A stretch of 64,000 nucleotides of DNA from NCBI RefSeq assembly GCF_016863035.1, contig NZ_BOOC01000032.1, positions 62,001 to 126,000 of the forward strand, given 5' to 3'. Both the position numbers and the translations under genes were made by a program. Positions 11,503 through 36,567 of the stretch are shown in pieces. The stretch comes from Microbispora corallina (GTDB taxonomy: Bacteria > Actinomycetota > Actinomycetes > Streptosporangiales > Streptosporangiaceae). Each line of letters starts with the position of its first letter. Position 1 is the stretch's first letter. The notes beneath the pieces are model-generated. The model worked only from the letters and a program-made list of their open reading frames with translations. It was not told the origin of the DNA and ran no database searches.

Positions 11503-11672
11503 CCGGAACCGCGAGGCGACGGGCGGGCCGTCTCACGGCGGCATTCTGGAATAAGACACGCGCGGACCCGGGTGCGACGATGAGGCCCGTACGCCTCGCC
11601 GGGCCAGCCTGAGCCGGGCTGCGGGGGTTGGTCGCCGGCGTCCGGGAAACGCCGACGACAGGATGTGACGTT

Positions 11673-12263
11673 GTGAGCATCACCCTCTGGTTCGACCCCG
11701 TCTGCCCCTTCACCTGGCGCACCTCCCGCTGGGTCCGGGACGTCGCCGCACGTCGCGGCGAGCCGGTGACCTGGCGGTTCATGAGCCTGGCCCTCCTCAA
11801 CGAGGGCAAGGACCTCCCCGAGAGGCTGCACCGGGCACACCGGAGGTCGCTGGCGGCGCTGCGCGTGCTCGCCGCCGCCGAGGAGCGGTTCGGCCAGCCG
11901 GCCGTCGACGCGCTGTACACCGCGATCGGGCACCGCGTGCACGACCTCGACGACGACCTCACACCGGACACGATCGGCGCCGCGCTGGCCGACGCCGGAC
12001 TGCCGTCCGACCTGCTGCTCGCCGCGGACGACCCCGGGTTCGACACGCTGATCGGTGAGAGCCACCGCCTCGGGCAGTCGCGGGTCGGCACCGAGAGCGG
12101 CAGCCCGGTGACCGCGATCGACGACGGGCCCGGCTTCTTCGGCCCGGTGGTCGCGAGCGTCCCCGCGGCAGAGGAGGCCGACCGGCTCATCGACGCCATG
12201 CGGCTGCTGTCGTCGGTGCCGGTGTTCAGCGAGCTGAAGCGCGAGCGCGCGCCGCTGAGCTGA
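11673..12263 (+). CDS. DsbA-family mycothiol-type reductase (Rv2466c-like)
   Basis: A 196-residue thioredoxin-fold protein. FDPVCPFTWRTSRW, FMSLALLNEGKDLP, LYTAIGHRVHD, ADAGLPSDLL and FFGPVVASVP follow the pattern of the mycobacterial mycothiol-dependent nitroreductase Rv2466c. The active site reads Cys11-Pro-Phe-Thr14, while Rv2466c has CPWC, so the resolving cysteine is replaced by Thr and the enzyme probably uses a monothiol mechanism with mycothiol. A GTG start at 11673 gives the expected N-terminus; the upstream ribosome site is weak. It is monocistronic and ends at a bidirectional terminator. Confidence 0.87.
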   Translation: MSITLWFDPVCPFTWRTSRWVRDVAARRGEPVTWRFMSLALLNEGKDLPERLHRAHRRSLAALRVLAAAEERFGQPAVDALYTAIGHRVHDLDDDLTPDTIGAALADAGLPSDLLLAADDPGFDTLIGESHRLGQSRVGTESGSPVTAIDDGPGFFGPVVASVPAAEEADRLIDAMRLLSSVPVFSELKRERAPLS

Positions 12264-12283
12264 GCGGCGCCGGACCTGAGGAA

Positions 12284-12324
12284 CGCCGCAGGGGCGGAGG
12301 GGAGTCCCCTCCGCCCCTGCGGCG
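12284..12324. terminator. Bidirectional terminator between convergent genes
   Basis: A perfect 20-bp inverted repeat (12284-12303 with 12305-12324) lies between the convergent ends of the DsbA-like gene (12263) and the MFS gene (12338). It can serve both strands. Confidence 0.85.
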
Positions 12325-12337
12325 TCTCCGCGGGTCC

Positions 12338-13666
12338 TCACCTCACCTCCTCGGCGGCGCGCTCGGACTCCTCGAACCGGGTGACGGCGCTCGGCAGGAA
12401 GCGGGCGAAGACGAGCCATCCGGCCGCCAGCGCGAGGATGCAGAGGAACATGGCGGGGCGCAGGCCGAGGCGGTCGCCCGCCAGGCCGCCCACGATGCCG
12501 CCGACGCCGATCGAGCCGAACGCGAGGAACCGGTACGTCGCCGAGACGCGGGCCAGCATGCCGTCGGGGGTGGCCCGCTGGCGCAGCGAGATGCCGTAGA
12601 TGTTGAACACCGTCATGCCCACGCCGTAGACGACGAAGGACAGCGTGGTGAGGGCGACCAGCACGGCCTGCGACCCCGAGGCGAGGGGGATGACGACGGG
12701 GGCGAGGGACGCCACGCCCATGCCGAGGATCAGCACCCGGGTCGTGCCCAGCGTGTCGCCGATGAGCCGGGCCACGCCCGAGCCCGCGAGCACGCCGATC
12801 GCGCCGAGCGACATCGTGAGGCCGACGAGCTGGGGGGAGAACCCCAGCACCCGGATGCCGTACAGCAGGTAGAGGGTGAGCACCGCCTGCTCGAAGAGGT
12901 TGAACCAGGCGCCCTGGAGGGTCAGCACACGCAGCAGCGGCATCCCGGCGGTGAACCTCATGCCCTCGGCGATCCGCCGGAGCGTGCCCTCGCCGCCGCG
13001 CGCCGCCGCCGGCAGGCGCTCCTCGCGGGCGCGGATGGCCAGCACGCCGATCGCGGCGAGCACGTACGCGACGACGGCCGACATCATGGCCGCGGACCCC
13101 CCGAACGCGCCGATCAGCAGGCCGCCGAGGCCGGGCGCGCCCACCATGGCCAGCGAGAACGCCACCTCCAGCCGGCTGTTGGCCTGAACCAGCTGGTCGC
13201 CGCGTACGAGCTTGGGGATGTACGCCTGGTAGGCGACGTCGGAGAAGGCGATCAGCGAGCCCATCCCGAACGCCACGAAGAACAGCACGGAGACGTGCAC
13301 GACGCCGAGCGAGCCGGCCAGCGGCAGGGTGGCGGCCAGGATCGCGTTGCCGACGTAGGCCGCGATCAGGGCGGGACGGCGCGGGCGGCGGTCCAGCCAC
13401 GCCCCGGCGAAGAGGGTGACGACGAAGACGGGGAAGAACTGGGCGGCGTTCAGCAGGCCGACCTGGGTGGGGGTGGCGGCGAACGTGACGACCGCGACGA
13501 GCGGTAGAATGACCGCGAGGCTTTTCGACGCGAATTGCGCGACGATCTGCGCGAGCAGGAATTTCGCGAAATCCTGGTTGACGAGGAACCGGGACGCCCG
13601 GCTTTCCCGTGGCCGGACCGCGGAACCGGCGTGACCCGCCGACCTGTGCAGCGTGGAAACCGACAT
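12338..13666 (-). CDS. MFS exporter (EntS-like MFS_3 family)
   Basis: A 442-residue permease with about 12 predicted membrane helices. QDFAKFLLAQIVAQFASKSLAVILPL starts helix 1 (written in two parts: QDFAKFLLAQIVAQFA, then SKSLAVILPL), and the cytoplasmic loop signature GAWLDRRPRRPALI follows helix 2. EntS-type members export siderophores and small peptides. ATG 13666 has AAGGA about 8 bp upstream; a longer frame to 13789 lacks a ribosome site. It lies 236 bp downstream of the FemAB/ATP-grasp pair on the same strand, separated by a terminator hairpin, so it has its own promoter. Its position next to the biosynthetic genes suggests product export or self-protection (inference). Confidence 0.85.
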   Translation of the reverse strand: MSVSTLHRSAGHAGSAVRPRESRASRFLVNQDFAKFLLAQIVAQFASKSLAVILPLVAVVTFAATPTQVGLLNAAQFFPVFVVTLFAGAWLDRRPRRPALIAAYVGNAILAATLPLAGSLGVVHVSVLFFVAFGMGSLIAFSDVAYQAYIPKLVRGDQLVQANSRLEVAFSLAMVGAPGLGGLLIGAFGGSAAMMSAVVAYVLAAIGVLAIRAREERLPAAARGGEGTLRRIAEGMRFTAGMPLLRVLTLQGAWFNLFEQAVLTLYLLYGIRVLGFSPQLVGLTMSLGAIGVLAGSGVARLIGDTLGTTRVLILGMGVASLAPVVIPLASGSQAVLVALTTLSFVVYGVGMTVFNIYGISLRQRATPDGMLARVSATYRFLAFGSIGVGGIVGGLAGDRLGLRPAMFLCILALAAGWLVFARFLPSAVTRFEESERAAEEVR

Positions 13667-13845
13667 GATGAGTTCCTTGAGAATCGTGGCGGCCGACCCT
13701 GCGGGTTCTCTTCGGCCCCGGAGTTCGTTCTGACAGGAACAACTCTCCGTTTTCCACGATCCTCGGAACAGCACAATCGAATGCAGCAACCTGCAGCGCC
13801 CCGGCAGCTTCCTGCCAGCCGCCTGCCACGCCTCCCGACGCGCGG

Positions 13846-13876
13846 ACGTCCCATGGCCGCCTGGGCCATGGGACGT
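13846..13876 (-). terminator. Hairpin terminator after the FemAB-like gene
   Basis: A perfect 13-bp inverted repeat (ACGTCCCATGGCC, five-base loop, complement) lies 27 bp past the stop of the FemAB-like gene, in the 236-bp gap before the MFS gene. Confidence 0.75.
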
Positions 13877-13902
13877 CTCTCAGATCGCGCGTCAGCGCCG
13901 TC

Positions 13903-15084
13903 TCAGCAGAACGGCTCCCACAGGTCGCGCACCAGCGCCTTGGCGACCGCCGGGGACGACTCGCTCCAGCGGGCCACGACGGCCGCGTTGTACGCCCGCA
14001 CGTCGTCGTCGCGGCCGTCGAGCACGCTGTCGCGCGACAGGTCGAGCATCCACAGCGGGCGCAGCTCCGCGCCGCGCAGCACCTTGGCCTCCGCCGCCTC
14101 GATGCCGGCGTGCAGCCGGCGGACGCCGTTCTCGCAGGCGATGAGCAGCGGGATGTAGTACACGAGGTTGAAGTACTCCGCCGCCCCGGCGAGCCGGTCG
14201 TAGTCGAACCCCGCGGCGCGCAGGTACAGCGTGTCGCCCCAGATGTAGTAGAGGCAGTACCCGACGGGCTCCTCCCCCGGGCGGCGCAGGAGCAGCACGC
14301 GGGCGGCCGCGCCGAGCGCCTCGGACTGGATGCGGATGGACTCCGTGAGGTCGCCGACGTCGGCGTCGTGGCCGTACCGGCGCTCGGTGCACGCCAGCAG
14401 ACGGGCCGCCCGCGGACCGCACTCGCCGAGCGTGGTGTGCACGACCTCGTAGCCGACGTCCAGGAAGACCCTGCGGTCCCTGCGGACGATGCCGGCCCGC
14501 CGGCTGGAGGGCAGCGAGCGCAGCCACGCGTCCCAGCCGCCGTCCTCGGGCAGGGGGATCCAGGCGTCCGGCTGCAGCGCCACCGGCATCGCCTGTACGC
14601 CGGCGGCGCGCAGCGCCACGACGTCCGGCGTGGACAGGAACATCGCGACGACGGGGACGCCGTCCGCGCCGGCCAGGCCCTGGGCGGCCAGCCCTCCGGC
14701 GAGGTCCTCCAGGGCGGCGAGGACCTCCTTGGCGGCCTGTTCCCTGGAGAGGCCGGGCGAGGCGAGGAGGTTCGTCTGGTACCCCCGGTGCGCTCCGACG
14801 AGCAGCCCGCTGAGGCCGGGCGACGGCAGCCCGGCCTCGTCGAGGATGCGGTGCCACTGGTAGAACGGGTTGCCGATCGAGCGCACCGCCGTCACCGGCA
14901 CCCCGGCCGTGCCGGCGCCCGGCACCTCCAGATGCAGCCCGCCGGTGGTGACGCCCCGGTCGCCCGCGCAGAAGCGCAGCCAGTCGGCCGACGAGTAGAA
15001 GTGGTCCCGGGCGAGCGCGTCCCAGGTGGCGGCGTCCATGCCGCCCGTCACGCCGGAGAAGGCCGGCAGCGGGATGTCGCTCAC
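13903..15084 (-). CDS. FemAB/GNAT-fold acyltransferase (peptidogalycan-type), candidate peptide-bond former
   Basis: A 393-residue protein of the FemAB-like GNAT superfamily. FYSSADWLRFC near residue 30 and YQWHRILDEAGLP occur in the first half. LRSLPSSRRAGIVRRDRRVF is the central signature of the peptidogalycan/FemAB-like family, and the second GNAT lobe follows (RVLLLRRPGEEPVGYCLYY, LYLRAAGFDYDRL, AEYFNLVYYIPL, RLHAGIEAAEAKVLRG). FemAB-fold enzymes transfer an amino acid, often from aminoacyl-tRNA, onto an amine; several antibiotic pathways use them in place of NRPS. The start overlaps the ATP-grasp stop by 4 bp (ATGA), so the two are translationally coupled. Acceptor and donor are unknown. 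Confidence 0.75.
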   Translation of the reverse strand: MSDIPLPAFSGVTGGMDAATWDALARDHFYSSADWLRFCAGDRGVTTGGLHLEVPGAGTAGVPVTAVRSIGNPFYQWHRILDEAGLPSPGLSGLLVGAHRGYQTNLLASPGLSREQAAKEVLAALEDLAGGLAAQGLAGADGVPVVAMFLSTPDVVALRAAGVQAMPVALQPDAWIPLPEDGGWDAWLRSLPSSRRAGIVRRDRRVFLDVGYEVVHTTLGECGPRAARLLACTERRYGHDADVGDLTESIRIQSEALGAAARVLLLRRPGEEPVGYCLYYIWGDTLYLRAAGFDYDRLAGAAEYFNLVYYIPLLIACENGVRRLHAGIEAAEAKVLRGAELRPLWMLDLSRDSVLDGRDDDVRAYNAAVVARWSESSPAVAKALVRDLWEPFC

Positions 15085-16433
15085 GAACGGCTCCCGGCGT
15101 CCGCGAGCTCCCGCGCGCCCTCGCCGGCCGTACCGCCCGCCACGCTGATCGTCACCGTGGCGGTGAACCTCTCCGCCAGGCCGTCCGCCGGCGTGTCGAG
15201 GGGGGCGTCGAAGACGACGGAGACCGAACGCGCCTCGGAGTCGGTCTGCGGGCCGAGCACGGTTCCCGGCCGCTGGGTGACCAGGACGGCGTGGTCGGCC
15301 GGCGGCGCGTCGGCGGCGACCGGTTCGAAGACCGGCCAGGTGTTGTCGACCGAGACCCAGGACACCGGGGCTCCGGTGCTGGTCACGTCGAGCAGGCCGC
15401 CGTACGGGTGCTCCAGGTAGACCTGGTACGCCCGGCGCCGGGGGACCGGGTAGGAGGTGGGCTCGCCGAGGGCGAGGTCGATCATGACGGGCTCCAGCGG
15501 CTCGCCCGTGGCGAGGTGCCAGAGGAAGGTGATGCCGTCGCCCGGCAGGCGCGTGGCGACCTCCATCAGCACTGCACGCCCCTCGGAGAGCCGGAACTCC
15601 GCGTGGGTGATGCCGTCGCCGAAGCCGATGCGGCGCAGCACCTCGGCGTTCGCGTCGCGCAGGGCCCGTACGTGCTGCTCGGGCAGCCGGGCGGGCGACG
15701 TGTGGCCCATCTCCGTGAAGAAGATCCCGGTGGACTCGTTGGTGGCCTTGGCGGTCACGCCCGCCCAGACGATCTCGCCGTTCTGCGTCAGGGCCTCGAC
15801 GGAGAACTCAGGACCGACCACGCGGCTCTCGACGAGCACGGTCTCGTCCTCGGGGTAGGTCGCGAGGATCGCCGGGAGGTCCTCGGGGTTCCTCACCTGG
15901 CGCACCCCGAGGCTGGAGAAGCGCCCGACCGGCTTGACCACGACGGGGAACGAGAGCCCTTCGGCGGGGAATCCGGCGCGCTCCTCCGGGGTGACCACGC
16001 GGAAGTCCGGCGACAGGTGCGGCACGGTGGTGCGCTGCAGGAGCTTGTTGCGGCTGGTGCGGCTGGCGCCCGCGCCCGCGCCCGGCAGGTTGAGACACGC
16101 GGCGACCATGCCCACGGGCTCCACGAAGAGATCCCCGATGCACAGCACGCCGCGCACGTCGTAGCGGCGCAGGAGCGGCTGGATGGCGGGCACCACCAGG
16201 TCGACCTTGGGCTCGGCGACGTTGACGACGTCCGCCAGCAGCGACAGAGGGTGGGTGTCGTCGGCCCGGCAGGCCGCGAGCTCGCCGGGGTCGGTGTCGG
16301 GGGTGATGACCAGCAGCGGGGCGTACCCCCGCCGGTGGGCCTCGGTGATGAGCCGGAGCTGCCGGGCGACGATCACCATGTCGCCCATGAACAGGATGGC
16401 GCGCGGGCGGGACGGGTTCGTGTCAGTGGTCAT
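15081..16433 (-). CDS. ATP-grasp carboxylate-amine ligase
   Basis: A 450-residue ATP-grasp enzyme. ILFMGDMVIVARQLRLITEA starts the N-terminal fold, VVVKPVGRFSSLGVRQV is the ATP-binding lysine/grasp loop, VESRVVGPEFSVEAL the central strand and ITHAEFRLSEG plus LMEVATRLPGD the metal site. The usual Glu-x-Asn of the metal site reads Glu-Val-Ala here, a departure from most peptide ligases. About 100 extra C-terminal residues follow the core (VYLEHPYGGLLDV onward). Such enzymes join amino acids through acyl phosphates and build dipeptides without NRPS. It is first in a two-gene unit with the FemAB-like gene and divergent from the questin-oxidase-like gene. Confidence 0.8.
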   Translation of the reverse strand: MTTDTNPSRPRAILFMGDMVIVARQLRLITEAHRRGYAPLLVITPDTDPGELAACRADDTHPLSLLADVVNVAEPKVDLVVPAIQPLLRRYDVRGVLCIGDLFVEPVGMVAACLNLPGAGAGASRTSRNKLLQRTTVPHLSPDFRVVTPEERAGFPAEGLSFPVVVKPVGRFSSLGVRQVRNPEDLPAILATYPEDETVLVESRVVGPEFSVEALTQNGEIVWAGVTAKATNESTGIFFTEMGHTSPARLPEQHVRALRDANAEVLRRIGFGDGITHAEFRLSEGRAVLMEVATRLPGDGITFLWHLATGEPLEPVMIDLALGEPTSYPVPRRRAYQVYLEHPYGGLLDVTSTGAPVSWVSVDNTWPVFEPVAADAPPADHAVLVTQRPGTVLGPQTDSEARSVSVVFDAPLDTPADGLAERFTATVTISVAGGTAGEGARELADAGSRS

Positions 16434-16797
16434 GATGTCCGATTCCCTGAACGGGTGTCAGCCGGTGGTGGAAGGTGCCCGGGGCGAACGCGTGAATGGC
16501 CGCGAATGGCCGCGAACGGCATGGCCGGCATCGGCGAACGGCGGCCGAAGGGTCTCGTGGAAAAGACCGAAGGGCCTCGCGGGAATTCGATGCCGTCGGC
16601 CCCGCATTCGCGCATCAGACCATCTCCTCTGCCCTGCGCCCAGTCAATACGGTCCCGTCACGGGTGTCTTCTCCGATCGTGCTGAGTGGCGGCCGCCGAT
16701 GCGCCCCGCGCGATCGCCCGCCGGAAGTTAGGCTTTCCGCACACCCGCGGTGAGCTTCTCCCGGGTGACGGTCTCGGACGATCCCGGGGAGGCGACG
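16434..16797. other. Divergent intergenic region (364 bp)
   Basis: This gap separates the ATP-grasp gene (minus) from the questin-oxidase-like gene (plus) and must hold both promoters. It contains a short tandem repeat near 16493-16520 (GAATGGCCGC twice, then GAACGGC). I see no convincing gene; the open frames across it have no coding pattern. Confidence 0.5.
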
Positions 16798-17847
16798 ATG
16801 AGCAGCGCGATCCTGAACGAGGCCTACGAGCGGTTCCGGGGCACCGGCCCCGAATGGGGGGAGAGCAGGCTCACCAACCACGGGCCGATGGCCGTCGAGG
16901 TGCTGGTCAGGCGCGGCCACGAGGACGCCGTGCACCGCTGGGTCGACGCCTACGCCCACCGCCTCGACGACCTGCCGTCCGCCCGCGAGCCGATCGGCGA
17001 CGCGAACTGGCGGGAGGCGCTGGGCGACGGCGACCGGGTGGGCGACTGGGCCGGGTACTTCACCCGGCAGGTCGCCGAGCGGCCGTGGCGCGAGGTGCTG
17101 GCGGTGTGGTGGCCCCGGCTGCTGCCCGGTGTCCTTGCGGGCACCACCCACGCCGTCATCAGGGTCGGCCACGCCGTGCGCACGCTGCTGGCCGACGACG
17201 GGAACGCGGTCGCGGCGGCCGAGCTGGCCCAGGGCCTGGCGTTCTGGGGCGCCCGCTCGCTCGGCATGCCGGTCGCGGCCGAGCCCCGGGGCGATCTGGA
17301 CCCCGGCGAGGCCATGGCGCGGGTGCCGCGGGTCCCCTCGCAGGACGGACCGGTCCGGGCCCGCCTCGGCCAGCTCCCCGGCCTGGCCGGCTGGCCGGAG
17401 GCCGTCGCCGCGCTGCGGCCCGCGCTCACCCCCGACGAGGTCCCGGCGCGGCTGGAGGCCCTGGTGGACGCCGCCACGCTGCGCTATCTCACCCACGGGC
17501 ACGCGAGCCCGGTGATCCTCGTGCACACCGCGACCGCGCCCAACGCCGTGCTGCACACGCTGCCGGCCCTGCCACGCGAGCTGTGGGTGCCGAGCCTGTC
17601 GGCGATCTGGGCCGCCTGCGCCGGGGTGCAGGCCGCGTTCGAGCCGGTGGAGGCCGCGCCGCGCGACGCCCTGCCGGAGGCGCCCGCGCACCCCGACGCC
17701 CTGCACGACGTGATCGAGGCGGCCGTCGCCCACGGCGACGAGCACGTGATCAAGTTCACCGACACCGCGGCCGAGGTCTTCACCCGCACCGGTCACCCGG
17801 ACGCGCTGGCCGCCGCGACCCGCGTCCGCCTGCTCCTCGCCCGCTGA
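16798..17847 (+). CDS. Questin oxidase-like (DUF4243) family protein
   Basis: A 349-residue protein. LNEAYERFRGTGPEWGESRLTNHGPMA is the family N-terminus (split here as LNEAYERFRGTGPEWG and ESRLTNHGPMA), followed by LPGVLAGTTHAVIRVGHAVR, YLTHGHASPVILVHTATAP and VIKFTDTAAEV with conserved histidines. Fungal questin oxidase opens an anthraquinone ring in a Baeyer-Villiger-like step; bacterial homologues are uncharacterised and the reaction here is not predictable. ATG 16798 has GGGGAGG upstream. It sits inside the biosynthetic region but on the other strand from its neighbours, so membership is uncertain. Confidence 0.78.
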   Translation: MSSAILNEAYERFRGTGPEWGESRLTNHGPMAVEVLVRRGHEDAVHRWVDAYAHRLDDLPSAREPIGDANWREALGDGDRVGDWAGYFTRQVAERPWREVLAVWWPRLLPGVLAGTTHAVIRVGHAVRTLLADDGNAVAAAELAQGLAFWGARSLGMPVAAEPRGDLDPGEAMARVPRVPSQDGPVRARLGQLPGLAGWPEAVAALRPALTPDEVPARLEALVDAATLRYLTHGHASPVILVHTATAPNAVLHTLPALPRELWVPSLSAIWAACAGVQAAFEPVEAAPRDALPEAPAHPDALHDVIEAAVAHGDEHVIKFTDTAAEVFTRTGHPDALAAATRVRLLLAR

Positions 17848-18256
17848 CGACTCGCGCTCCCTCAGGAGGGGCCGGCGACCCACGCTCACCACGGCCGAGC
17901 ACCCAGACTCACCGCGGTTGAGCACCTCCGCTCCCCGCGGCCGGCCACCCGCGCTCGCCGCGGGAGAGGCGGGCGACCCCGCGCCTCCCCCGGCCGCGGG
18001 AATGAGCACATCTTTTCCCGCTCCTGTGGATCCGCCCCCGCCGGGAGTTTCCCGGCCGGGGCCTTTCTTTGTTTTTCGCGTTTCTCCGCGCCGGATTGCA
18101 GGAAGTTGTCAGCGCGGGGCAGCTTGCTGACTTTCCCATCCCTGGTCCGCGTCCTTACCGGCACGCAGTGTTGTGGGCGGATTCGAATCCGCGGCCCCGT
18201 TTTCCGGGGTCGTGCGCCGCCGTCAACCAATTCCTGCGTACAGACCGGGTGCACAA
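17848..18256. other. Intergenic region (409 bp) before the FAD/NAD(P) gene
   Basis: The first 130 bp contain loose direct repeats of CACGCTCACCACGGCCGAG type. Around 18030-18140 the GC content drops, as expected for a promoter. A 16-bp palindrome (18177-18192) and an adjoining hairpin (18193-18211) lie 46-80 bp before the ATG at 18257. No gene seen. Confidence 0.45.
18177..18211. promoter_or_regulatory. Palindrome plus hairpin upstream of the FAD/NAD(P) gene
   Basis: GCGGATTCGAATCCGC (18177-18192) is a perfect 16-bp palindrome. It abuts a 7-bp stem (GGCCCCG, loop TTTTC, CGGGGTC with one G-T pair) at 18193-18211. This could be an operator or a 5'-leader structure. It resembles a tRNA T-arm only superficially. 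Confidence 0.35.
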
Positions 18257-20251
18257 ATGAGAAGCACGCAGAAGGATCCGTTCGTCGTCGTGATCGTGGG
18301 TGCGGGGCCACGGGGTACGGGAGTGCTGGAGCGCCTGCTCGCCAACGCCGCCGAGACGCCGCCGTCCCGCCCGCTGAGCGTCGAGCTCGTCGACCCCTAC
18401 CCACCGGGGGGCGGCCGGGTGTGGCGGGAGGAGCAGTCGCCGCTGATGTGGATGAACGCCACCGCCGAGAACGTCACCATGTTCCCCGACGAGACCGTGA
18501 CCTGCGACGGGCCGATACGCTCGGGGCCGTCCCTGAGCGAGTGGGCCGCGGCCGAGGGCGCCTGCGCCGAGGTCACCCGCACGACGTTCGCCACCCGCCA
18601 GGTGCAGAGCCGCTACCTGCGCTGGGTCTTCGACAAGGTCGTCGCCGAGCGGCCGCAGAACGTGTCGGTGCGCGTGCACGCGACCCGGGCCACCCGGATC
18701 GAGGGCGGCGCGCGCACCCGGCAGCGCGTGTGGCTGGAGGACCGCGACGCGCCGCTGCTCGCGGACGTGGTGGTCCTGGCCCTGGGGCACCTGGACGCCG
18801 TCCCCTGCAAGGACCAGCGGCTCCTCGCCGACTTCGCCGACCGCCACGCCCTGGGCCATCTGCCGTGCGCCTACTCGGCCGACGCGGACCTGTCGGTGTT
18901 CCGGCCCGGCGAGGACGTGCTGATGCGCGGCATGGGCGCCGCGTTCATCGACCTGATGGTGCTGCTGACCGAGGGCCGCGGCGGCGCCTTCGCCGAGGGG
19001 GCGGACGGCCGGCTGCGCTACGTCCCCTCGGGCAGGGAGCCCCGGCTGCACGTCGGGTCGCGCCGCGGGGTGCCGTACCGCTCGAAGATCTCCTACCGGC
19101 TCGTGGGCGACCCTCCGCCGCTGCCGCGCTTCTTCTCCGCCCCCGAGGTCGACGCGCGGTTGGCCGGCCGCGACCGGATCGGCTTCTGGGACGATCTGTG
19201 GCCGCTGATGGCCAAGGAGATCGCGTACGGCTACTACCACGAGCTGTTCACCGCCCATCCCGAGCGCGTCGCGATGCCGTGGCGGGAGTTCTCCGCGGCG
19301 TACGACGGCCTGGACTGGGACGGCGAGCCGTTGCGCGCCCTCGTCGAGGCGTCCGTCCCGTCGAAGGCGGATCGCCTGGACTTCGCCGCGCTCGACAGGC
19401 CGCTGCGCGGGCTGCGCTTCCCCGGGTCCGCGGATCTGCAGGACCACGTGCGCGAGCACATCAGGGCGGACGTCGACCGCCGCTCGGACCGCCGGCACAG
19501 CGCCGACCTCGGGGCGTTCCTCGCCCTGCTCTCGGTGTACGGGCAGTTGCCGCTGCTGACGTGCCTCGCCAGGCTGCCCGCCCGTTCGCGCGTCACGGAC
19601 GTCGACGGCTGGTGGCAGGGCTTCTTCGAGTACGTCGGCAGCGGCTCGCCCCGCGAGAGGACCCGGCAGCTGCTCGCGCTCGCGGAGGCCGGCGTCGTGC
19701 GGTTCGTCGGCGCGGACATGTGGGTCGAGACGGACGAGGAGAGGGGCGTGTACCGGGCGGGCGGCGCGAGCACGCCGGACACCGTCGAGGCGACCGGCCT
19801 GATCGAGGCGCGGCTGCCCGACGCCGACCTGCCTACGTGCACGGAGCCGCTGCTGCGGTCGCTGTACCGCAGCGGCGAGGCCGCCGAGCACGTGCTGGCC
19901 GACGACGACGGGTACGCGCACCGCACCGGGCTGCTGCACGTCTCCCCCGAGGACTTCCGCGTCCTGTCCCGGGACGGCGTCCCGCACCCCCGCCGCTTCG
20001 CGCTCGGACCCTTCACCAACATCCGGCGGTTCGCGACCTTCGCCCGGCCGCGCAGCAACGCGCTGTCGTTCCGGCAGAACGACCGGCTCGCCCGGGAGGT
20101 GCTCCGCCTCCTCGGCGCGCCGGCGCGCGTCTCCCGGAAGGACGGCGGGCGGGGCGGGACCGGCCTCCCCGCGGAGACCGGCCCCGCCCTGCCCGCCGAA
20201 GGGCGGCTAGCGCTCCAGGACGTGGCCGTCGTCCGGCCGATGGTCGCGTGA
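18257..20251 (+). CDS. FAD/NAD(P)-binding protein (NAD_binding_9 type), cluster-associated flavoenzyme
   Basis: A 664-residue flavoprotein. The dinucleotide-binding motif VVVIVGAGPRGTGVLERLL lies at residues 8-26, then ELVDPYPPGGGRVWR, LMWMNATAENVTMFPDE and VVVLALGHLDAV. The later region (LQDHVREHIRADVDRR, ALSFRQNDRLARE) follows actinobacterial FAD/NAD(P)-binding proteins of pfam13454 type, which lack a characterised reaction. The start at ATG 18257 has no strong ribosome site but gives the correct N-terminus. The 3' end overlaps the convergent 2-oxoglutarate dioxygenase gene by 45 bp. In characterised hydrazine pathways a flavin oxidase of another family cleaves the lysine-glycine hydrazine; this protein might perform an oxidative step, but that is speculation. 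Confidence 0.7.
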   Translation: MRSTQKDPFVVVIVGAGPRGTGVLERLLANAAETPPSRPLSVELVDPYPPGGGRVWREEQSPLMWMNATAENVTMFPDETVTCDGPIRSGPSLSEWAAAEGACAEVTRTTFATRQVQSRYLRWVFDKVVAERPQNVSVRVHATRATRIEGGARTRQRVWLEDRDAPLLADVVVLALGHLDAVPCKDQRLLADFADRHALGHLPCAYSADADLSVFRPGEDVLMRGMGAAFIDLMVLLTEGRGGAFAEGADGRLRYVPSGREPRLHVGSRRGVPYRSKISYRLVGDPPPLPRFFSAPEVDARLAGRDRIGFWDDLWPLMAKEIAYGYYHELFTAHPERVAMPWREFSAAYDGLDWDGEPLRALVEASVPSKADRLDFAALDRPLRGLRFPGSADLQDHVREHIRADVDRRSDRRHSADLGAFLALLSVYGQLPLLTCLARLPARSRVTDVDGWWQGFFEYVGSGSPRERTRQLLALAEAGVVRFVGADMWVETDEERGVYRAGGASTPDTVEATGLIEARLPDADLPTCTEPLLRSLYRSGEAAEHVLADDDGYAHRTGLLHVSPEDFRVLSRDGVPHPRRFALGPFTNIRRFATFARPRSNALSFRQNDRLAREVLRLLGAPARVSRKDGGRGGTGLPAETGPALPAEGRLALQDVAVVRPMVA

Positions 20252-21202
20252 GCTGCGCAGGTTCACGGAGACGAACGTCCGCTGGAGCCAGCGGTCGCGG
20301 CCGTCGTACCGGGGCCGGAAGGCGGTGCGCCCGTGCACCGTGACGCGGTTGTCGACGACGGCGAGGTCCCCGGTGACCAGCCGGACGCTCTGCGCGGTCC
20401 GGTCGAACACCTCGCCCAGCTCGGCCAGCGCGGCTCGGGCCGCCGGCGTCAGCGGCGTGGTGGCGGCGAGGTCGACCCGCATGTCCGGGTCGTCGGGGGC
20501 GCCGGACAGCACGCCGTGCGGGAAGGTGGCGTCGCGGTTCGCGCCGAACGAGGGCGGGGCCTCGGTGACGAACTCGGGCAGGAACAGCGTCCGCCGCGTC
20601 TCGTCCGTGAGCAGCGGGAGGATCTCCCGTGAGCACGCCGTGCGCAGCCCCGCGACGCGGTCGTGGTCGGGCCGCAGGCACAGGAGGAGGACGTAGTCGG
20701 GCCGGTGCTCGTGGAAGGCGTTCTCGTTGTGGAACGACAGCGTGACCGAGCCGGCGTTGCCCTGGAACTCCTCCTTTCCCGGCACGGGGACGACGTCCTG
20801 CACCAGCGCGCCGGACTTCTCCGCGCGGAAGGCGATCGGATCGCCGAGCGCGCACGCGACGAGCAGGAGCATCGCGGCGGGGCCGCTCAGCGTCTGCTGC
20901 ACGGAGCCGTCCACGGTGGGGGTCGCGGGCAGCAGGTTCTCGTCGACGGGAAGGCCGCGCACCAGCAGCGCCCCCGTCGGGCCCGAGTGCCTGCGGAACG
21001 CCCGCAGCGCCCGGCGCAGGGCCGGGGGCAGCGCGTCGGAGGTGTCCCTGGCCGCGGCCATGGTCGCGGCGTCGTCCACCGTGCGGGCGGCGGACGACCG
21101 CACGGCGAGCACGGCCCTGCGGACGCGCGCGCCGTCCGCGCCGTCCATCACGACGCCGTCCGCCGGGGTCTGAGTGATCATCGATAGCACTGTGTCCACC
21201 AT
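20207..21202 (-). CDS. Fe(II)/2-oxoglutarate-dependent amino acid hydroxylase (clavaminate synthase-like, VioC/AsnO type)
   Basis: A 331-residue dioxygenase. The iron triad is visible: His158 and Glu160 in SFHNENAFHEHRPDYVLLL, and His290 in VVDNRVTVHGRTAF. FRPRYDGRDRWLQRTFV supplies the 2-oxoglutarate-binding Arg. These signatures match the AsnO/VioC group, which beta-hydroxylates free Asn, Arg, Orn or Lys for peptide antibiotics. The ATG at 21202 directly follows the TGA of the MetRS-like gene (TGAATG), so the two are coupled; MITQ at 21181 is an alternative start. It is the last gene of the four-gene operon. Predicted role: hydroxylation of a diamino acid or its hydrazine derivative. The substrate is not determinable. 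Confidence 0.85.
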   Translation of the reverse strand: MVDTVLSMITQTPADGVVMDGADGARVRRAVLAVRSSAARTVDDAATMAAARDTSDALPPALRRALRAFRRHSGPTGALLVRGLPVDENLLPATPTVDGSVQQTLSGPAAMLLLVACALGDPIAFRAEKSGALVQDVVPVPGKEEFQGNAGSVTLSFHNENAFHEHRPDYVLLLCLRPDHDRVAGLRTACSREILPLLTDETRRTLFLPEFVTEAPPSFGANRDATFPHGVLSGAPDDPDMRVDLAATTPLTPAARAALAELGEVFDRTAQSVRLVTGDLAVVDNRVTVHGRTAFRPRYDGRDRWLQRTFVSVNLRSSRDHRPDDGHVLER

Positions 21203-22846
21203 TCACTGAGGATCGAGAGTGGCCCGGCGCGCGGCCGCCGTGTCGCCGGGGGTCGCCAGCAGGGGCAGGGCGAAGGGGGTGACGCGCGCCGGACGGAACT
21301 CCTCGGCGTCCAGCCGGCAGGTGAACCCGCCCGCCTCGCCCGCGGCCCGGGCGAGGTCGATCAGGATCGGCGAGGCGCAGGCCACCAGGACCCGCACGTC
21401 GAGGAAGAGGTCGCCGAGCCTGGCCGGATCGTCCGCCGCGTCCCGGTGGCCCTCGTGGACGAGCCGCGCCTCGCCGACCAGCCGGTCGAGCTGGCCGACG
21501 ATCAGGTTGGCGGCCCGGGTGAGGCTGTAGCCGGACAGCTCGTAGCAGGCGCGGAACCGGGCGAGCACCGCCTCGGCGCGCCGCCGGCCCTCGTCGGACA
21601 CCGGCAGGTCCGCGCCCTCGGCGCCGGCGTCGGCGACGGCCTTGCCCAGCAGCCCGGCCAGCCGGTTCCACGGCCGCACCAGCCGGTCGCCGCAGACCCT
21701 GGCCAGCGCCTCCCGCCCGAAGTTGGCGAGCTGGTGCTCCGGGGCGCTGATCGCGAGGTAGAAGCGCACCAGGTCCCTCGGCACCTCCTTGAGCAGGTCC
21801 TTGGTGTAGAGGACGTGGCCGAGGCTGGTGGAGAACTTGGCGTTCTCCAGCTCGTAGAACTCGTTGGAGATGAAGGTGTCCGGCAGCGCGTACCTGCCCT
21901 CGTGCGCCATCAGCAGCGCGATGTGGGTGAAGCCCCAGAAGTAGACGTTGTCGAACCCGATGAAGTAGACGATCTCCGGGTCGTGCTCGGCGCGCCACAG
22001 CTCGTCGTCCGCCGCGTGCCGCTCGCCGAGCCGCTCGGCGGCGTACGCCGTGGTGTACATGACGGCGGGCATGCCCTCGGCCCAGGCGTTGATCCGCTGG
22101 CCCGGCGTCTCGGGGAACGGCGCGGGGATGCCCCAGCCGATGGGATAGGTGATCGGGAAGTCGGGCAGCGGCCGGGCCAGCACCTCGCGGACCAGCTGCG
22201 TCGTGTGCGGCCGCAGGCGCGGCTCGCGTTCCCGGTAGTAGGCGGTGAGCCGGTCGCGGTACTCCTCCATCGGCAGCACCAGGATCCGGGCCTCGCGGTG
22301 CGTCACCACGTCGTCGGGGTCGATGGTGGAGCGCGGCCGGATCAGCTCGTCGAAGTTGTTCGGGTGGCCGCAGGTCTCGCACAGCCCGCCGCGGCTCTCC
22401 ACCAGGCAGATCGGGCAGTAGCCGCAGACCAGGCCCTCGACGAGGTACTCGCCCCTGCGCTCGGAGTACGGCAGCATGACCGTCTTCTCGCGGAACCTGC
22501 CCGCCCGGTGCAGCGCCGTGAGGAACGACAGCACCGACGCCCGGTAGCGGTCGTCGTACGGCGCGAACCCGTCGAGCGAGACGCCCATCCCGGCGAGCGT
22601 GCCGCGGATCTCGTGCCAGGACCTGCCGCTGAGCTCCTCCGGCGTGAGCCCCTTGCGCCGCGCGCTCGACAGCACGTACGTCTGGCTGTCGTCGGTGCCG
22701 CTGGAGAACACCACGGGACGCCCGTTGGCCCGCAGGTAGCGGGCGTAGACGTCGGCCGCCATGAACGGGCCCGCGAGGTGCCCGACGTGCAGGTCGCCGT
22801 TCGAGGTCGGCGGGGTGTCGATGATGATGGCCCGGCGTTCGTTCAC
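21203..22846 (-). CDS. Methionyl-tRNA synthetase-like ligase, predicted hydrazine synthetase subunit
   Basis: A 547-residue class I synthetase-like protein. IDTPPTSNGDLHVGHLAGP carries the HIGH motif as HVGH (20-23). Cys141, 144, 147, 156 and 159 with His161 form a zinc-knuckle-like insert. The KMSKS loop is Lys337-Phe-Ser-Thr-Ser341, with Thr for the second Lys. In the C-terminal helical domain the Asn-x3-Arg used by housekeeping MetRS to read the anticodon is not evident (RPWNRLAG at that place). In characterised pathways (Spb40 of s56-p1, Tri28 of triacsin, and pyrazomycin/formycin homologues) a MetRS-like domain fused to a cupin condenses N-hydroxylysine with glycine to form an N-N bond. 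Here the cupin gene is separate and overlaps by 4 bp. The alternative is a resistant MetRS for self-protection. Confidence 0.8.
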   Translation of the reverse strand: MNERRAIIIDTPPTSNGDLHVGHLAGPFMAADVYARYLRANGRPVVFSSGTDDSQTYVLSSARRKGLTPEELSGRSWHEIRGTLAGMGVSLDGFAPYDDRYRASVLSFLTALHRAGRFREKTVMLPYSERRGEYLVEGLVCGYCPICLVESRGGLCETCGHPNNFDELIRPRSTIDPDDVVTHREARILVLPMEEYRDRLTAYYREREPRLRPHTTQLVREVLARPLPDFPITYPIGWGIPAPFPETPGQRINAWAEGMPAVMYTTAYAAERLGERHAADDELWRAEHDPEIVYFIGFDNVYFWGFTHIALLMAHEGRYALPDTFISNEFYELENAKFSTSLGHVLYTKDLLKEVPRDLVRFYLAISAPEHQLANFGREALARVCGDRLVRPWNRLAGLLGKAVADAGAEGADLPVSDEGRRRAEAVLARFRACYELSGYSLTRAANLIVGQLDRLVGEARLVHEGHRDAADDPARLGDLFLDVRVLVACASPILIDLARAAGEAGGFTCRLDAEEFRPARVTPFALPLLATPGDTAAARRATLDPQ

Positions 22847-23235
22847 AGCTCAGCCCTCGCTCCCTGTGTGGTGAGGCTCGTGTCGTGGTGGCGGGCGGTG
22901 AAGCGCTCACTCATGGGGACGTCCCACCACACCGCGTACATCTCGAAGTCCTCGTCGCCCTCGTTGACGACCTGGTGGTCCACGTACGGCGGGAAGTGGA
23001 CCAGGTCGCCGGGCCTGAACGGGGTGCGTTCACCCCCGGACACGAGCACGGCCTCCCCGGAGACCGCGATGAAGACCTCGTACTCGTGGTGGGCGTGGCT
23101 GGTGGTCGCCGTGCCCGGCCTGACGACGCACCAGGCGCCCTCGAAGGGGGCGTTCAGCGTGTCCCACGGCATCAGCCGCTGCGAGTGGTTGTTGGCGGGA
23201 CCCAGCCGGTCCCGGTCCAGCCTGCGGACGTCCAC
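22843..23235 (-). CDS. Cupin protein, predicted N-N bond-forming partner of the MetRS-like ligase
   Basis: A 130-residue single-domain cupin. Motif 1 is complete (His47-x-His49-x3-Glu53 in SHAHHEYEVFIAVSGE) and motif 2 has PGDLVHFPPYVDHQVVN with His87, so a full metal site is present. In known hydrazine synthetases a cupin domain of this kind is fused to the MetRS-like domain and rearranges the O-glycyl-hydroxylamine ester into the hydrazine. Here it is a separate gene, 18 bp after the N-monooxygenase stop and overlapping the MetRS-like start by 4 bp. The arrangement strongly implies a two-subunit version of the same enzyme (inference). Confidence 0.82.
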   Translation of the reverse strand: MDVRRLDRDRLGPANNHSQRLMPWDTLNAPFEGAWCVVRPGTATTSHAHHEYEVFIAVSGEAVLVSGGERTPFRPGDLVHFPPYVDHQVVNEGDEDFEMYAVWWDVPMSERFTARHHDTSLTTQGARAEL

Positions 23236-23253
23236 GGTCGCTCCTTCGCACTC

Positions 23254-24579
23254 TCAGTTGGCGGGGACGGGTACGGCGACGGCCTGCGACGGCACGGCGG
23301 CGAGGCTCCGCGGCCCGCCCTCCGCCCGGTCGGCCAGGATGTCGGCGGTGATCTCCCAGGCGCGTACGGCCTGCATGCTGAGCAGCGAGTCGGCGATGCC
23401 GTGCGTCGCCTCGTTGACCCCCTGCAGGTAGCAGGCCGCGGTCGCGGGGCCGGGGACGGCGAGCCGGTAGGTGCGGTTCACCGAGACGTCCTCCAGGCCG
23501 AGCGCGCCGGCGAGACCGCGCACCAGGCCCGGCATCGCCCGTACGAACCCGGTGCCGAGCAGCACCAGGTCGCACCGCAGCTCCTCCGTCTCGCCCGTCC
23601 TGCGGTCGGTCAGCTCCAGCACGACCTCGTCGCTGTCCTCCCGGGCCGAGGTCACGTCGTGCATCGTGACCACGCGCAGCCGTCCCTTGCCGGTCAGCCG
23701 GTCGAGGTACAGCGCGTGGTACAGCTTGTCGAGCGTGGCCGGGTTCAGGCCCGAGTAGTTGGTGATGTGCATCTCGTCGAGGATCTGCCGCCGCGCCTCC
23801 TGCCGGGCGCCGAAGAAGGCGTCCACCGCGGACGGGAAGTACAGCTCGTTGGTGAACTTGCTGTTCTCGTACGTCTTCAGGCCGATCGACCGCATCACCA
23901 GGGTCGGCTGGCAGCCCGGCAGGTCGCGCTGCACGGCGTCGAACATCTCGGCCGCGCTCTGCCCGCCGCCGATCACCGCCACCCGGTACGGCACCCCCTT
24001 GGGCAGCTCCGCGATCCGCTGGACGTACCTGGTGCTGTGGACGACGCGCCGCGCCGGCAGGGCGGCGAACGCCTCGGGCACGTGGACGTCCCTGCCGATC
24101 CCCATGACGAGGTAGCGGCTGCGGATCGTCGAGCCGTCGGCGAGGCGGGTCAGCCAGCCGGTCAGCGCGCCCTCGGCGTCCCGCAGCGGCTCGACGGCGG
24201 TGCAGCGCCGGTTGTACTCGAGCCGCACCCGGCTGAGGGAGTCGGCGACCCAGGCGAGGTAGTCGGAGATCTCGATCCGGTACGGCCAGAGGCTGCCGAC
24301 GTTGATGAACTCGCTGAGCCTGCCCACCGCGTGCAGGTAGTTCACGAACGAGAACCGGCTGCACGGGTTGCGCAGGGTGACGAGATCCTTGAGGAAGGAG
24401 ACCTGGCTCTGCGCCTCCGGCAGCAGCATCCCCGGCTGCCACGCCACCGTTCCGGCCTGCTCGATCACCAGTGAGCCGGTGGCCAGCCCTCCGGGGGCGA
24501 GCTCTTCGAGGGCCACGGCGAGGGCCAGGTTCGCAGGTCCGGCGCCAATCGCGAGCAGTTCCACATCCCTGTGTTTCAT
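23254..24579 (-). CDS. L-ornithine/L-lysine N-monooxygenase (SidA/IucD/PvdA family)
   Basis: A 441-residue flavin N-hydroxylase of normal length. The FAD site GAGPANLALAVAL is at residues 12-24, SFLKDLVTLRNPCSRFSFVNY is the family signature (first part SFLKDLVTLRNP), the NADPH site is VAVIGGGQSAAEMF, then FTNELYFPSAVDAFF, TNYSGLNPATLDKLY and LLGTGFVRAMP. GVNEATHGIADSLLS ends the core. It uses NADPH and O2 to hydroxylate the side-chain amine of Orn or Lys; the choice cannot be read safely. ATG 24579 follows GAGGAAAA. It leads the operon N-monooxygenase, cupin, MetRS-like, dioxygenase. No siderophore synthetase is nearby, which favours hydrazine formation over a hydroxamate siderophore. Confidence 0.9.
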   Translation of the reverse strand: MKHRDVELLAIGAGPANLALAVALEELAPGGLATGSLVIEQAGTVAWQPGMLLPEAQSQVSFLKDLVTLRNPCSRFSFVNYLHAVGRLSEFINVGSLWPYRIEISDYLAWVADSLSRVRLEYNRRCTAVEPLRDAEGALTGWLTRLADGSTIRSRYLVMGIGRDVHVPEAFAALPARRVVHSTRYVQRIAELPKGVPYRVAVIGGGQSAAEMFDAVQRDLPGCQPTLVMRSIGLKTYENSKFTNELYFPSAVDAFFGARQEARRQILDEMHITNYSGLNPATLDKLYHALYLDRLTGKGRLRVVTMHDVTSAREDSDEVVLELTDRRTGETEELRCDLVLLGTGFVRAMPGLVRGLAGALGLEDVSVNRTYRLAVPGPATAACYLQGVNEATHGIADSLLSMQAVRAWEITADILADRAEGGPRSLAAVPSQAVAVPVPAN

Positions 24580-28855: not shown

Positions 28856-29030
28856 TCGTGACCCTCCACTCGGGGGGAGTACGCACGCGGGGACGTGCGG
28901 AACTGCGCACGCCGGCTCGCGGTGGGGACCGGCGAGCCGGCGTGCTGCGAGGAACACGGGGTGATCCGCCGGGGCCGTCTGTGACCGGCAGGCTCGTCAG
29001 CGGGACGCGGCGGACGTCAGGTGATCGCGG

Positions 29031-33328: not shown

Positions 33329-33675
33329 GGGCGTGAGCACCGGGCGGGCCATGACCGTCCGCCGGAACCTGTAGGCGCCCTCGTAGGTCTGAGGTGATCT
33401 CCCGCACCGTGGACCGCCCGGATCTCGTCACGGGAAGCACCCCTGGCCTCCCCGGCCACACCTGATCGAAGCTTCTGGGCGCGGATCGCGCCCGAGCCGG
33501 GCGGAGTACGGAACTGTTCCGGACGCCCGCGGACCTTGTGGAGGCTCGCGGGGGACGGGGATCTTCGTGCTGCTCCCCCCAGACGCTCCTCGCGAGACGC
33601 CTATGGAGGTCCCCTCGTGCACCGATCATCCGGCTGGAAGCGAACGTCGGCCCACTCGGGCCTCCGGAGGGCGGA
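33329..33675 (+). other. Intergenic region (347 bp) upstream of the SARP regulator
   Basis: It must hold the SARP gene promoter. I see no coding pattern, and the heptamer repeats found at the cluster promoters were not found here. Confidence 0.4.
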
Positions 33676-36108: not shown

Positions 36109-36567
36109 TCACGCGTTCAGCCGCCGGAGCACGACACCCGTGATCCTGCTCTCGGGGAGGAGGCCCCACTGCCGGGAGTCGGTGCTCCGCGAGGGGTTGT
36201 CCCCGAGGACGAGCAGGCGTCCCGGCGGCACGTGGACCTCTCCCAGGGCCTCTCCCAGCGCCTCGAACCCGGGAGGGATCGGGTCCCCGGCCACGGCCGC
36301 CGCCCGCTTGATCACCAGGTTCGTGCCGCCGTCGAGCGTGAAGCCCTCCCCCGGGCCCACGCGGGCGATGACGACGATGTCCCCGCGCCGGACCCGCCGG
36401 CCGGCCCGGCCGGGCCGAAGTCTCCGCACGAGGACCTGGTCACCGGGCCACAGGCCGGGCTCCATGCTCTCCCCGTGAACCTCGACGACGCGCAGGATCT
36501 GTCCGGCCGCCACCACGGCGGCGGCCACGAGCGCCGCTGCGAGCAGGACGACCAGGACGAGCGTCAT
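36109..36567 (-). CDS. S26-family (type I) signal peptidase, cluster-dedicated
   Basis: A 152-residue enzyme. One N-terminal membrane helix (VLVVLLAAALVAAAVVAAG) is followed by the catalytic Ser34 in HGESMEPGLWPGD and the general-base Lys87 in LVIKRAAAVAGD; LVLGDNPSRSTDSRQWG is the third signature. It is shorter than housekeeping LepB, as cluster-dedicated versions often are. The start overlaps the ABC exporter stop by 4 bp (ATGA), so the proteins are made together. The Ala-x-Ala ends of the two peptide leaders are the obvious substrates (inference). Confidence 0.88.
   Translation of the reverse strand: MTLVLVVLLAAALVAAAVVAAGQILRVVEVHGESMEPGLWPGDQVLVRRLRPGRAGRRVRRGDIVVIARVGPGEGFTLDGGTNLVIKRAAAVAGDPIPPGFEALGEALGEVHVPPGRLLVLGDNPSRSTDSRQWGLLPESRITGVVLRRLNA

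Follow-up and report, generated by a model that had tools for sequence, protein, structure and literature searches.

Bonds between two nitrogen atoms are uncommon and reactive, and enzymes that form or modify them are few. Hydrazine synthetases are described as forming an ATP-dependent ester between an amino acid and N-hydroxylysine that a zinc cupin then rearranges, and separately encoded pairs of a cupin and a methionyl-tRNA synthetase (MetRS)-like protein, which are already in print, make N–N bonds in characterized systems (PMC8664883). Here we analyze a gene cluster related to these systems in a 64,000-nucleotide stretch of the 8.36 Mb draft genome of Microbispora corallina (G000:C32:62001–126000, hereafter the window). 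Positions 11628–24579 encode an N-monooxygenase, a stand-alone cupin, a MetRS-like protein, a hydroxylase resembling AsnO and a flavoenzyme related to CreE, and with putative peptide-bond-forming enzymes the cluster would, at a rough probability of 0.55, make a small N–N-bonded peptide: a hydrazine of hydroxyasparagine and an N-hydroxy diamino acid that is N-oxidized rather than cleaved, assembled without a nonribosomal peptide synthetase (NRPS).

Among the closest known systems is that of RHS1 from Rhodococcus jostii RHA1, in which the MetRS-like protein and the cupin are likewise separate and the trio of RHS1, MetRS-like protein and N6-lysine hydroxylase yields an N–N product (PMC8664883). 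Judged from gene content, we take the pRHL1 locus (L096) to be this system. It differs from the window in using glutamate and in having a saccharopine dehydrogenase and a luciferase-like oxygenase; the two MetRS-like proteins are 29% identical, RHS1 has Asp63 at the metal ligand where the window cupin has His (H47), and no AsnO-like or CreE-relative match was found in the 15 kb searched. Since the RHA1 locus also holds ATP-grasp and FemAB-like genes, hydrazine peptides made without an NRPS are probably not confined to the M. corallina cluster.

The s56-p1 (Spb38/39/40), triacsin (Tri26/27/28), azaserine and N-nitroglycine pathways are described as forming hydrazines with an N-monooxygenase and MetRS-like and cupin parts, but Spb40 and Tri28 are didomain enzymes that use glycine, and in the s56-p1 and triacsin pathways a D-amino-acid oxidase (DAAO) homologue (Spb39 type) cleaves the hydrazine; the excerpts used from these sources mention no AsnO in the four pathways (PMC11705231; PMC13274452). 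The initial annotation had drawn the parallel to s56-p1 and triacsin; the hydrazine-releasing oxidase of those pathways is missing here, as Pfam assigns a DAO domain to none of the window's cluster genes. In Streptomyces sp. BHT-5-2, S. bicolor and related strains (L005, L018–L020), the N-monooxygenase, cupin, MetRS-like and AsnO-like proteins are 57–67% identical to those of the window, but these loci keep DAAO, show no CreE-relative or FemAB match, and have other ATP-grasps. We know of no product for this group.

No described cluster with this exact gene set had been known to the initial annotation, and the set is indeed absent from the titles and abstracts of the literature searched, outside which most subscription journals lie. 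New, on the evidence of sequence, are an AsnO-linked clade of hydrazine synthetases and an apparently CreE-derived enzyme without most of the aspartate site and without a lyase. The clade is apparently unstudied and may take an amino acid with a functional side chain (hydroxyasparagine or asparagine); if so, N–N biocatalysis would gain an extra building block and perhaps also a new type of N-oxidation. NRPS-free hydrazine peptides are also a class that genome mining centered on NRPSs and polyketide synthases can miss. As the gene set is short, has its core in eight genomes and is expressible piecewise, both claims are directly testable.

The predicted hydrazine-synthetase trio and the AsnO-like hydroxylase

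The SidA/IucD-type N-hydroxylase, cupin and MetRS-like protein had been proposed at the outset to act as a hydrazine-synthetase trio, and family matches and motifs support this. The best solved relatives of the N-monooxygenase are 3s5w (L-ornithine 5-monooxygenase), MbtG (9nns) and KtzI (4tlx), and its FLKD and THGI.DSLLS stretches are conserved in 10 of 10 aligned rows; it is predicted to N-hydroxylate the side-chain amine of lysine, ornithine or a relative. The cupin, with 4rd7, 4mv2 (plu4264) and 5uqp (the RHS1 entry) as best solved relatives, has the metal motif H47, H49, E53 and H87, including the invariant Glu, with equivalents across 20 aligned cupins, and is predicted to be the N–N-forming half of the synthetase. 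The predicted ester-forming half, the MetRS-like protein, keeps the class I ATP-site motifs HVGH and KFSTS. With the metG model it scores 174.6 bits, below the cut-off of 336.35, against 499.8 bits for a separate housekeeping MetRS at C49, and in alignment its C-terminal anticodon region looks unlike that of E. coli MetRS. A flavin omega-N-hydroxylase (PF13434) is encoded in the same operon as the pair. Membership of the cupin and MetRS-like protein in the hydrazine-synthetase family (PyrN, RHS1) is well supported by these sequences, and we consider hydrazine formation by the trio highly probable.

AsnO itself is part of a lipopeptide NRPS cluster (calcium-dependent antibiotic) and works on a free amino acid ahead of its incorporation into the peptide, whereas its relative here sits with a hydrazine synthetase. 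The cluster enzyme matches AsnO (2og5) with 364 bits in phmmer and 59% identity over the aligned part, with iron, 2-oxoglutarate and asparagine-site residues in common, as against 160 bits or less for clavaminate synthase and arginine and lysine hydroxylases. With AsnO residue numbers and roles as we take them to be (asparagine binding by E125, N146, D241 and R305, iron binding by an HxE...H motif, and an arginine for 2-oxoglutarate), equivalents of E125, N146, H155, E157, D241, H287, R301 and R305 are kept in all 17 cluster-linked AsnO-like copies (the window and 16 others). The enzyme most likely hydroxylates free L-asparagine at position 3; the 2-oxoglutarate hydroxylase of the initial annotation stands as to enzyme class, while its target is probably asparagine and not the diamino acid.

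In all, 41 loci were compared, 35 from a contig scan of genomes and six from plasmids; loci end at 10 kb flanks or at contig ends, and absence means absence from the compared stretch. In 40 of them (exception L045) the cupin adjoins the MetRS-like gene and an N-monooxygenase is present. An AsnO-like match occurs in 16 and a CreE relative in eight, the latter always with an AsnO-like match and an ATP-grasp copy 67–89% identical to that of the window. The initial annotation had suggested searching genomes for the same gene set; a six-gene core (N-monooxygenase, cupin, MetRS-like, AsnO-like, CreE relative and ATP-grasp) turned up in eight of the 41 loci, whose hosts are Streptosporangiaceae, Pseudonocardiaceae and Micromonosporaceae, and all ten cluster genes together in four, which argues against a chance grouping. 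In L016, L017 and L021, the AsnO, CreE-relative and ATP-grasp genes lie downstream of the MetRS-like gene on the same strand. A search at an E value of 1e-60 or better recovered the MetRS-like gene from 27 of 341 genomes of the family; apart from the window's genome, four of these carry it at 78–92% identity. None of the 14 further genomes of the genus gave a hit.

A MetRS-like tree of 42 rows, from which L045 (25% identity) and the E. coli MetRS were excluded, was made by a quick method and has some long branches (RHA1, L009, L006, L037, L021). In it all AsnO-linked rows, 17 with that of the window, group as a single clade (SH-aLRT 99), within which the nine rows that have a CreE relative make up a clade of their own (SH-aLRT 96).

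The CreE-related flavoenzyme and its possible exchange with DAAO

What the initial annotation called an FAD/NAD(P) enzyme is a flavoprotein and, more exactly, a relative of the CreE-family N-oxygenases: it matches 8cp2, the sole solved relative found by sequence, with a phmmer E value of 1.4e-102 over query residues 36-648 (39% identity in alignment). This structure is the L-aspartate N-hydroxylase of Streptomyces sp. V2, a CreE/FzmM-family enzyme whose sulfate and aspartate sites are described with eight named residues, R13, R266, R276, R409, R412, N413, R416 and R577 (PMC10404684). Six of the eight are replaced in the window copy (K266, P276, L409, Y412, G413, P416), which of the aspartate-binding R13, R276, N413, R416 and R577 retains R13 and R577 only. 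All nine orthologues have other residues in place of R276 and N413, and seven also in place of R416, the exceptions being L016 and L017 with R at 416; L021 has R at 409.

A paralogue on contig C18 of the same genome, in contrast, is 62% identical to 8cp2, has all eight site residues and neighbors Lyase_1, nitronate monooxygenase and Rv2466c-like genes. When 39 CreE-family loci were assigned to the window or C18 side by bit score, Lyase_1 was found beside none of the 21 closer to the window's copy and beside 13 of the 18 closer to the C18 copy; the genome has six Lyase_1 matches, none of them on contig C32. With six of eight site residues lost and no neighboring lyase, the CreE relative appears to represent a lyase-free branch that probably acts on a substrate other than aspartate, and we rejected an ordinary nitrosuccinate synthase on the same two grounds. 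Ten loci with homologues closer to the CreE relative than to the C18 CreE (L084–L093) contain no N-monooxygenase, cupin, MetRS-like, AsnO, ATP-grasp, FemAB, questin-like or Rv2466c-like match; neighbor clustering over 11 loci gave two recurring protein groups, in four and five loci, the second resembling the window's ABC-transporter gene at 36564.

The C18 group itself (G000:C18:123231-129402, L094:6232-12403; nitronate monooxygenase, CreD-like Lyase_1, CreE-like and Rv2466c-like genes) looks like a nitrosuccinate/nitrite pathway, and was also seen in 7 of 8 same-genus loci (L119-L125) but not in L138, which has a more distant CreE homologue. Two of the four Rv2466c-like genes in the genome adjoin its two CreE-family genes.

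A DAAO homologue is present in 27 of the 41 loci, a count that includes L010 on a 56-residue match at its end and leaves out L032 and L038, which have only a second, weakly similar type (32–34%); in L025–L027 and L041 it is located some 7 kb past the MetRS-like gene. It occurs in 8 of 8 AsnO-linked loci without a CreE relative and in 0 of 8 with one. The simplest history that this pattern suggests is that AsnO was gained once and that the CreE relative was acquired afterwards while DAAO was lost. From its apparent exchange with DAAO across loci, we infer that the CreE relative may oxidize the hydrazine.

Peptide assembly, proposed pathway and alternative readings

As first noted, ATP-grasp and FemAB-type enzymes occur here without an NRPS; Pfam assigns an NRPS domain to none of the cluster genes. 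The ATP-grasp ligase has an L-amino acid ligase, 3vot, as its best solved relative and is predicted to form a peptide or amide bond. Structure models, built with 46 and 34 of 120 listed homologues, were used for the FemAB-like and questin-oxidase-like proteins. The former model (pLDDT 95.8) is closest in fold to FemX (tandem GNAT fold) and to Sbb17/Sba18, which are tRNA-dependent peptide synthases, with no acetyltransferase above the FemX group in the structure comparison; the overall fold is alike but sequence identity is 10-18%, and the protein is predicted to be an aminoacyl-tRNA-dependent peptide synthase. As FemAB matches occur in only 4 of 41 loci, all Streptosporangiaceae, the core product may need the ATP-grasp alone. 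The questin-oxidase-like model has the fold of the iron dioxygenase BTG13, and H44, H134, H141, H259, H332 and K335 are invariant in 34 aligned sequences; they may or may not correspond to the His ligands and the modified lysine of questin oxidase-type iron dioxygenases such as BTG13.

In the pathway we propose, with an order of steps that family membership suggests, free L-asparagine would be converted to 3-hydroxyasparagine by the AsnO-like enzyme, as close homology and conserved residues suggest, and the side-chain amine of lysine or ornithine would be hydroxylated by the N-monooxygenase. As in the characterized enzyme family, on which the N-hydroxylation is modeled too, the MetRS-like protein would adenylate hydroxyasparagine (or asparagine) and move it to the N-hydroxyl oxygen, giving an unstable ester that the metal cupin would rearrange to a hydrazine linking the hydroxyasparagine alpha-nitrogen to the omega-nitrogen of the diamino acid. 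The CreE relative may then oxidize a nitrogen of the hydrazine or of its product, in place of Spb39-type cleavage, and the iron dioxygenase and the Rv2466c-like protein may act later in the pathway or in self-protection. Amino acids would be added by the ATP-grasp and, in Streptosporangiaceae, the FemX-type enzyme, and the product would be exported by the major facilitator superfamily (MFS) transporter. A doubtful extension is a separate N–N branch, in which the CreE-derived enzyme, no longer tied to aspartate and a lyase, N-oxidizes the intact hydrazine of hydroxyasparagine and the N-hydroxy diamino acid, giving an azoxy, N-hydroxyhydrazine, hydrazone or nitramine product in place of the oxidative cleavage of known pathways, and tRNA-dependent peptide capping follows.

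Several observations weigh against parts of this pathway. Product, second amino acid and peptide nature are all predictions, and sequence does not decide between lysine and ornithine, or between asparagine, 3-hydroxyasparagine and another amino acid. Eight pocket residues for hydrazine-synthetase specificity were reportedly given by Matsuda in 2024; our own column test set 17 AsnO-linked MetRS-like rows against 24 others (L045, E. coli MetRS and RHA1 left out), with the methionine pocket taken as 11 residues of E. coli MetRS. Five of 446 columns separate the two groups, only one of them (E. coli Y260) in the pocket (P 0.12), and all 17 AsnO-linked rows come from one ancestor; the P = 0.0002 obtained with two neighboring positions added post hoc is not counted as evidence. 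Positions 125 and 146 set the clavaminate synthase control apart, but it has the other listed residues as well, the D241 and R305 equivalents among them, so that only E125 and N146 discriminate the AsnO type. AsnO could provide hydroxyasparagine for the peptide part only, and in the BHT-5-2 group its gene lies about 8 kb downstream of the trio, behind transporter genes. Of the 16 AsnO-linked loci other than the window, half carry DAAO but lack a CreE relative, and since four further loci of the comparison (L009, L031, L033, L045) lack both, the exchange of DAAO for the CreE relative is suggestive only; absence of DAAO alone proves no replacement. Finally, none of the questin-like, FemAB, MFS and Rv2466c-like genes is present throughout the eight core relatives, although the MFS copy is in each of the four Streptosporangiaceae loci and the Rv2466c-like gene in seven of the eight other core loci.

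It is possible, though less likely than not, that the MetRS-like protein of the same hydrazine cassette uses glycine, serine or alanine, with hydroxyasparagine a separate block joined by the ATP-grasp or FemX-type enzyme. As noted above, AsnO acts on a free amino acid for later peptide use, and ATP-grasp matches also occur in many loci without AsnO. Moreover, the substrates given for the family in the part of PMC11705231 used here are glycine, alanine, serine, glutamate and tyrosine, asparagine not being listed. Against this, L035, L039, L042 and L044, one AsnO-linked subclade, keep AsnO without an ATP-grasp match in the compared stretch, which suggests that AsnO serves the hydrazine itself, and some MetRS-like columns shift with AsnO linkage, though within a single clade. 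We consider it improbable that the CreE relative yields nitrite or a nitro/nitroso donor for a triazene, diazo or nitrosamine product as in triacsin. The triacsin cluster is described as pairing the N-monooxygenase/hydrazine route with the aspartate hydroxylase Tri21 and the lyase Tri16 (PMC7347517), Rv2466c-like genes also stand beside the CreE–lyase pair here and in 7 of 8 same-genus loci, and the C18 pair could deliver nitrite from elsewhere in the genome; but the CreE relative has lost most of its substrate-site residues, no lyase match lies beside any of the 21 loci on its side of the family, and no AMP-binding or other candidate nitrite-dependent N–N ligase was seen among the cluster genes in Pfam.

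A hydroxamate siderophore or other cluster without an N–N bond, with the MetRS-like protein a resistant or spare MetRS, seems very improbable. N-monooxygenases of this kind do feed hydroxamate siderophores and the MetRS fold family is common to both, but the MetRS-like protein falls below the metG cut-off beside a full MetRS at C49, its anticodon region looks unlike that of E. coli MetRS, and the cupin accompanies it and the N-monooxygenase in all but one locus. The two outcomes named in the initial annotation as refuting it, a siderophore role and charging of tRNA-Met, look unlikely, since a separate MetRS exists and Pfam gives no siderophore synthetase match among the cluster genes.

Two known products were also considered. 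Negamycin, a hydroxylated-lysine hydrazide peptide, was rejected: the heme enzyme NegJ is credited with forming its hydrazine and its cluster has N-methylation and beta-lysine genes (PMC12154649), and neither these nor a NegJ-type heme enzyme were seen among the cluster genes. Pyridazomycin is described as having ornithine, oxaloacetate and glycine as precursors, with its N-monooxygenase given as unknown (PMC7347517), and no fitting C–C-forming enzyme was found among the cluster genes.

Gene map, cluster limits and related loci

Open reading frames and Pfam matches place every gene of the initial annotation where it had been put, all with high GC content at third codon positions, and support the tight minus-strand operon of N-monooxygenase, cupin, MetRS-like and 2-oxoglutarate oxygenase genes. 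By coordinates the cupin and MetRS-like genes overlap by 4 bases, and the oxygenase ATG follows immediately after the MetRS-like stop. The longest N-monooxygenase frame extends to 24807; because its alignable part and its closest relatives begin at the ATG at 24579, the start was placed there. The questin-oxidase-like and Rv2466c-like genes are additional to the initial annotation.

Table 1. Genes of the conserved cluster, with positions in the window
Feature	Position	Strand	Evidence or remark
N-monooxygenase, Lys/Orn omega-hydroxylase family	23254..24579	-	PF13434 E 2.4e-86
Stand-alone cupin	22843..23235	-	Cupin_2 5e-17
MetRS-like protein, predicted amino-acid-activating	21203..22846	-	PF09334 (tRNA-synt_1g) 3.2e-64
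Fe(II)/2-oxoglutarate oxygenase, AsnO type	20207..21202	-	TauD 7.1e-14
CreE/FzmM-related flavoprotein	18173..20251	+	PF13454 (NAD_binding_9) 7.2e-43; likely start near 18257
Questin-oxidase-like (DUF4243) protein	16750..17847	+	predicted non-heme iron dioxygenase fold
ATP-grasp ligase, L-amino acid ligase type	15081..16433	-	ATP-grasp_4 1.6e-19
FemAB/FemX-fold aminoacyl transferase (predicted)	13903..15084	-	24.5 bits vs Pfam cut-off 27; FemX fold in model
MFS transporter, predicted exporter	12338..13789	-	MFS_1 6.8e-30; true start probably downstream of listed TTG
Rv2466c-like protein (mycothiol-dependent nitroreductase, DsbA fold), cluster edge	11628..12263	+	PF22234 3.2e-52

The same ten-gene order is found in Planobispora longispora and two Sphaerisporangium genomes, and a Sphaerisporangium metagenome-assembled genome has the ten genes together with the last two rearranged. 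At the Planobispora site, equivalents of window genes 57404 and 58663 lie directly upstream of the N-monooxygenase gene, and no match was found there to window genes between 24.9 and 57 kb; this arrangement places the ends of the conserved cluster at 24579 and 11628. The large secreted-type proteins encoded upstream of 24579 are outside it. A gene at 24998-28957, in the block without a match at the Planobispora site, encodes a protein of 1319 aa whose Golvesin-C-like and GDSL-lipase-like matches each fall slightly short of the Pfam cut-off. A BTAD-type regulator gene (33538-35478) is likewise outside the conserved cluster, and BTAD-like matches occur in several related loci (e.g. L021, L022).

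Further loci in the comparison carry related gene sets. L042:5771-17477 (Streptomyces natalensis) and L039:8593-17186 (Actinokineospora enzanensis) hold a related AsnO-linked hydrazine cluster with cupin, MetRS-like, AsnO, a distant N-monooxygenase, DAAO, a TauE-type exporter and acetamidase/formamidase. Plasmid-borne hydrazine-synthetase clusters with N-monooxygenase, cupin, MetRS-like and DAAO genes were seen in the enterobacteria Pantoea (L007, L008) and Klebsiella variicola (L010); in the two Pantoea plasmids, both typed conjugative, DAAO is followed by MFS, ATP-grasp, solute-binding protein and GNAT genes. On a Deinococcus ficus plasmid (L006:4946-14919), three ATP-grasp genes and two for FAD oxidoreductases accompany the trio, and a Streptomyces angustmyceticus plasmid (L009:4775-11497) encodes an adenylation-domain protein directly 5' of the N-monooxygenase, cupin and MetRS-like genes, a possible NRPS-linked hydrazine pathway.

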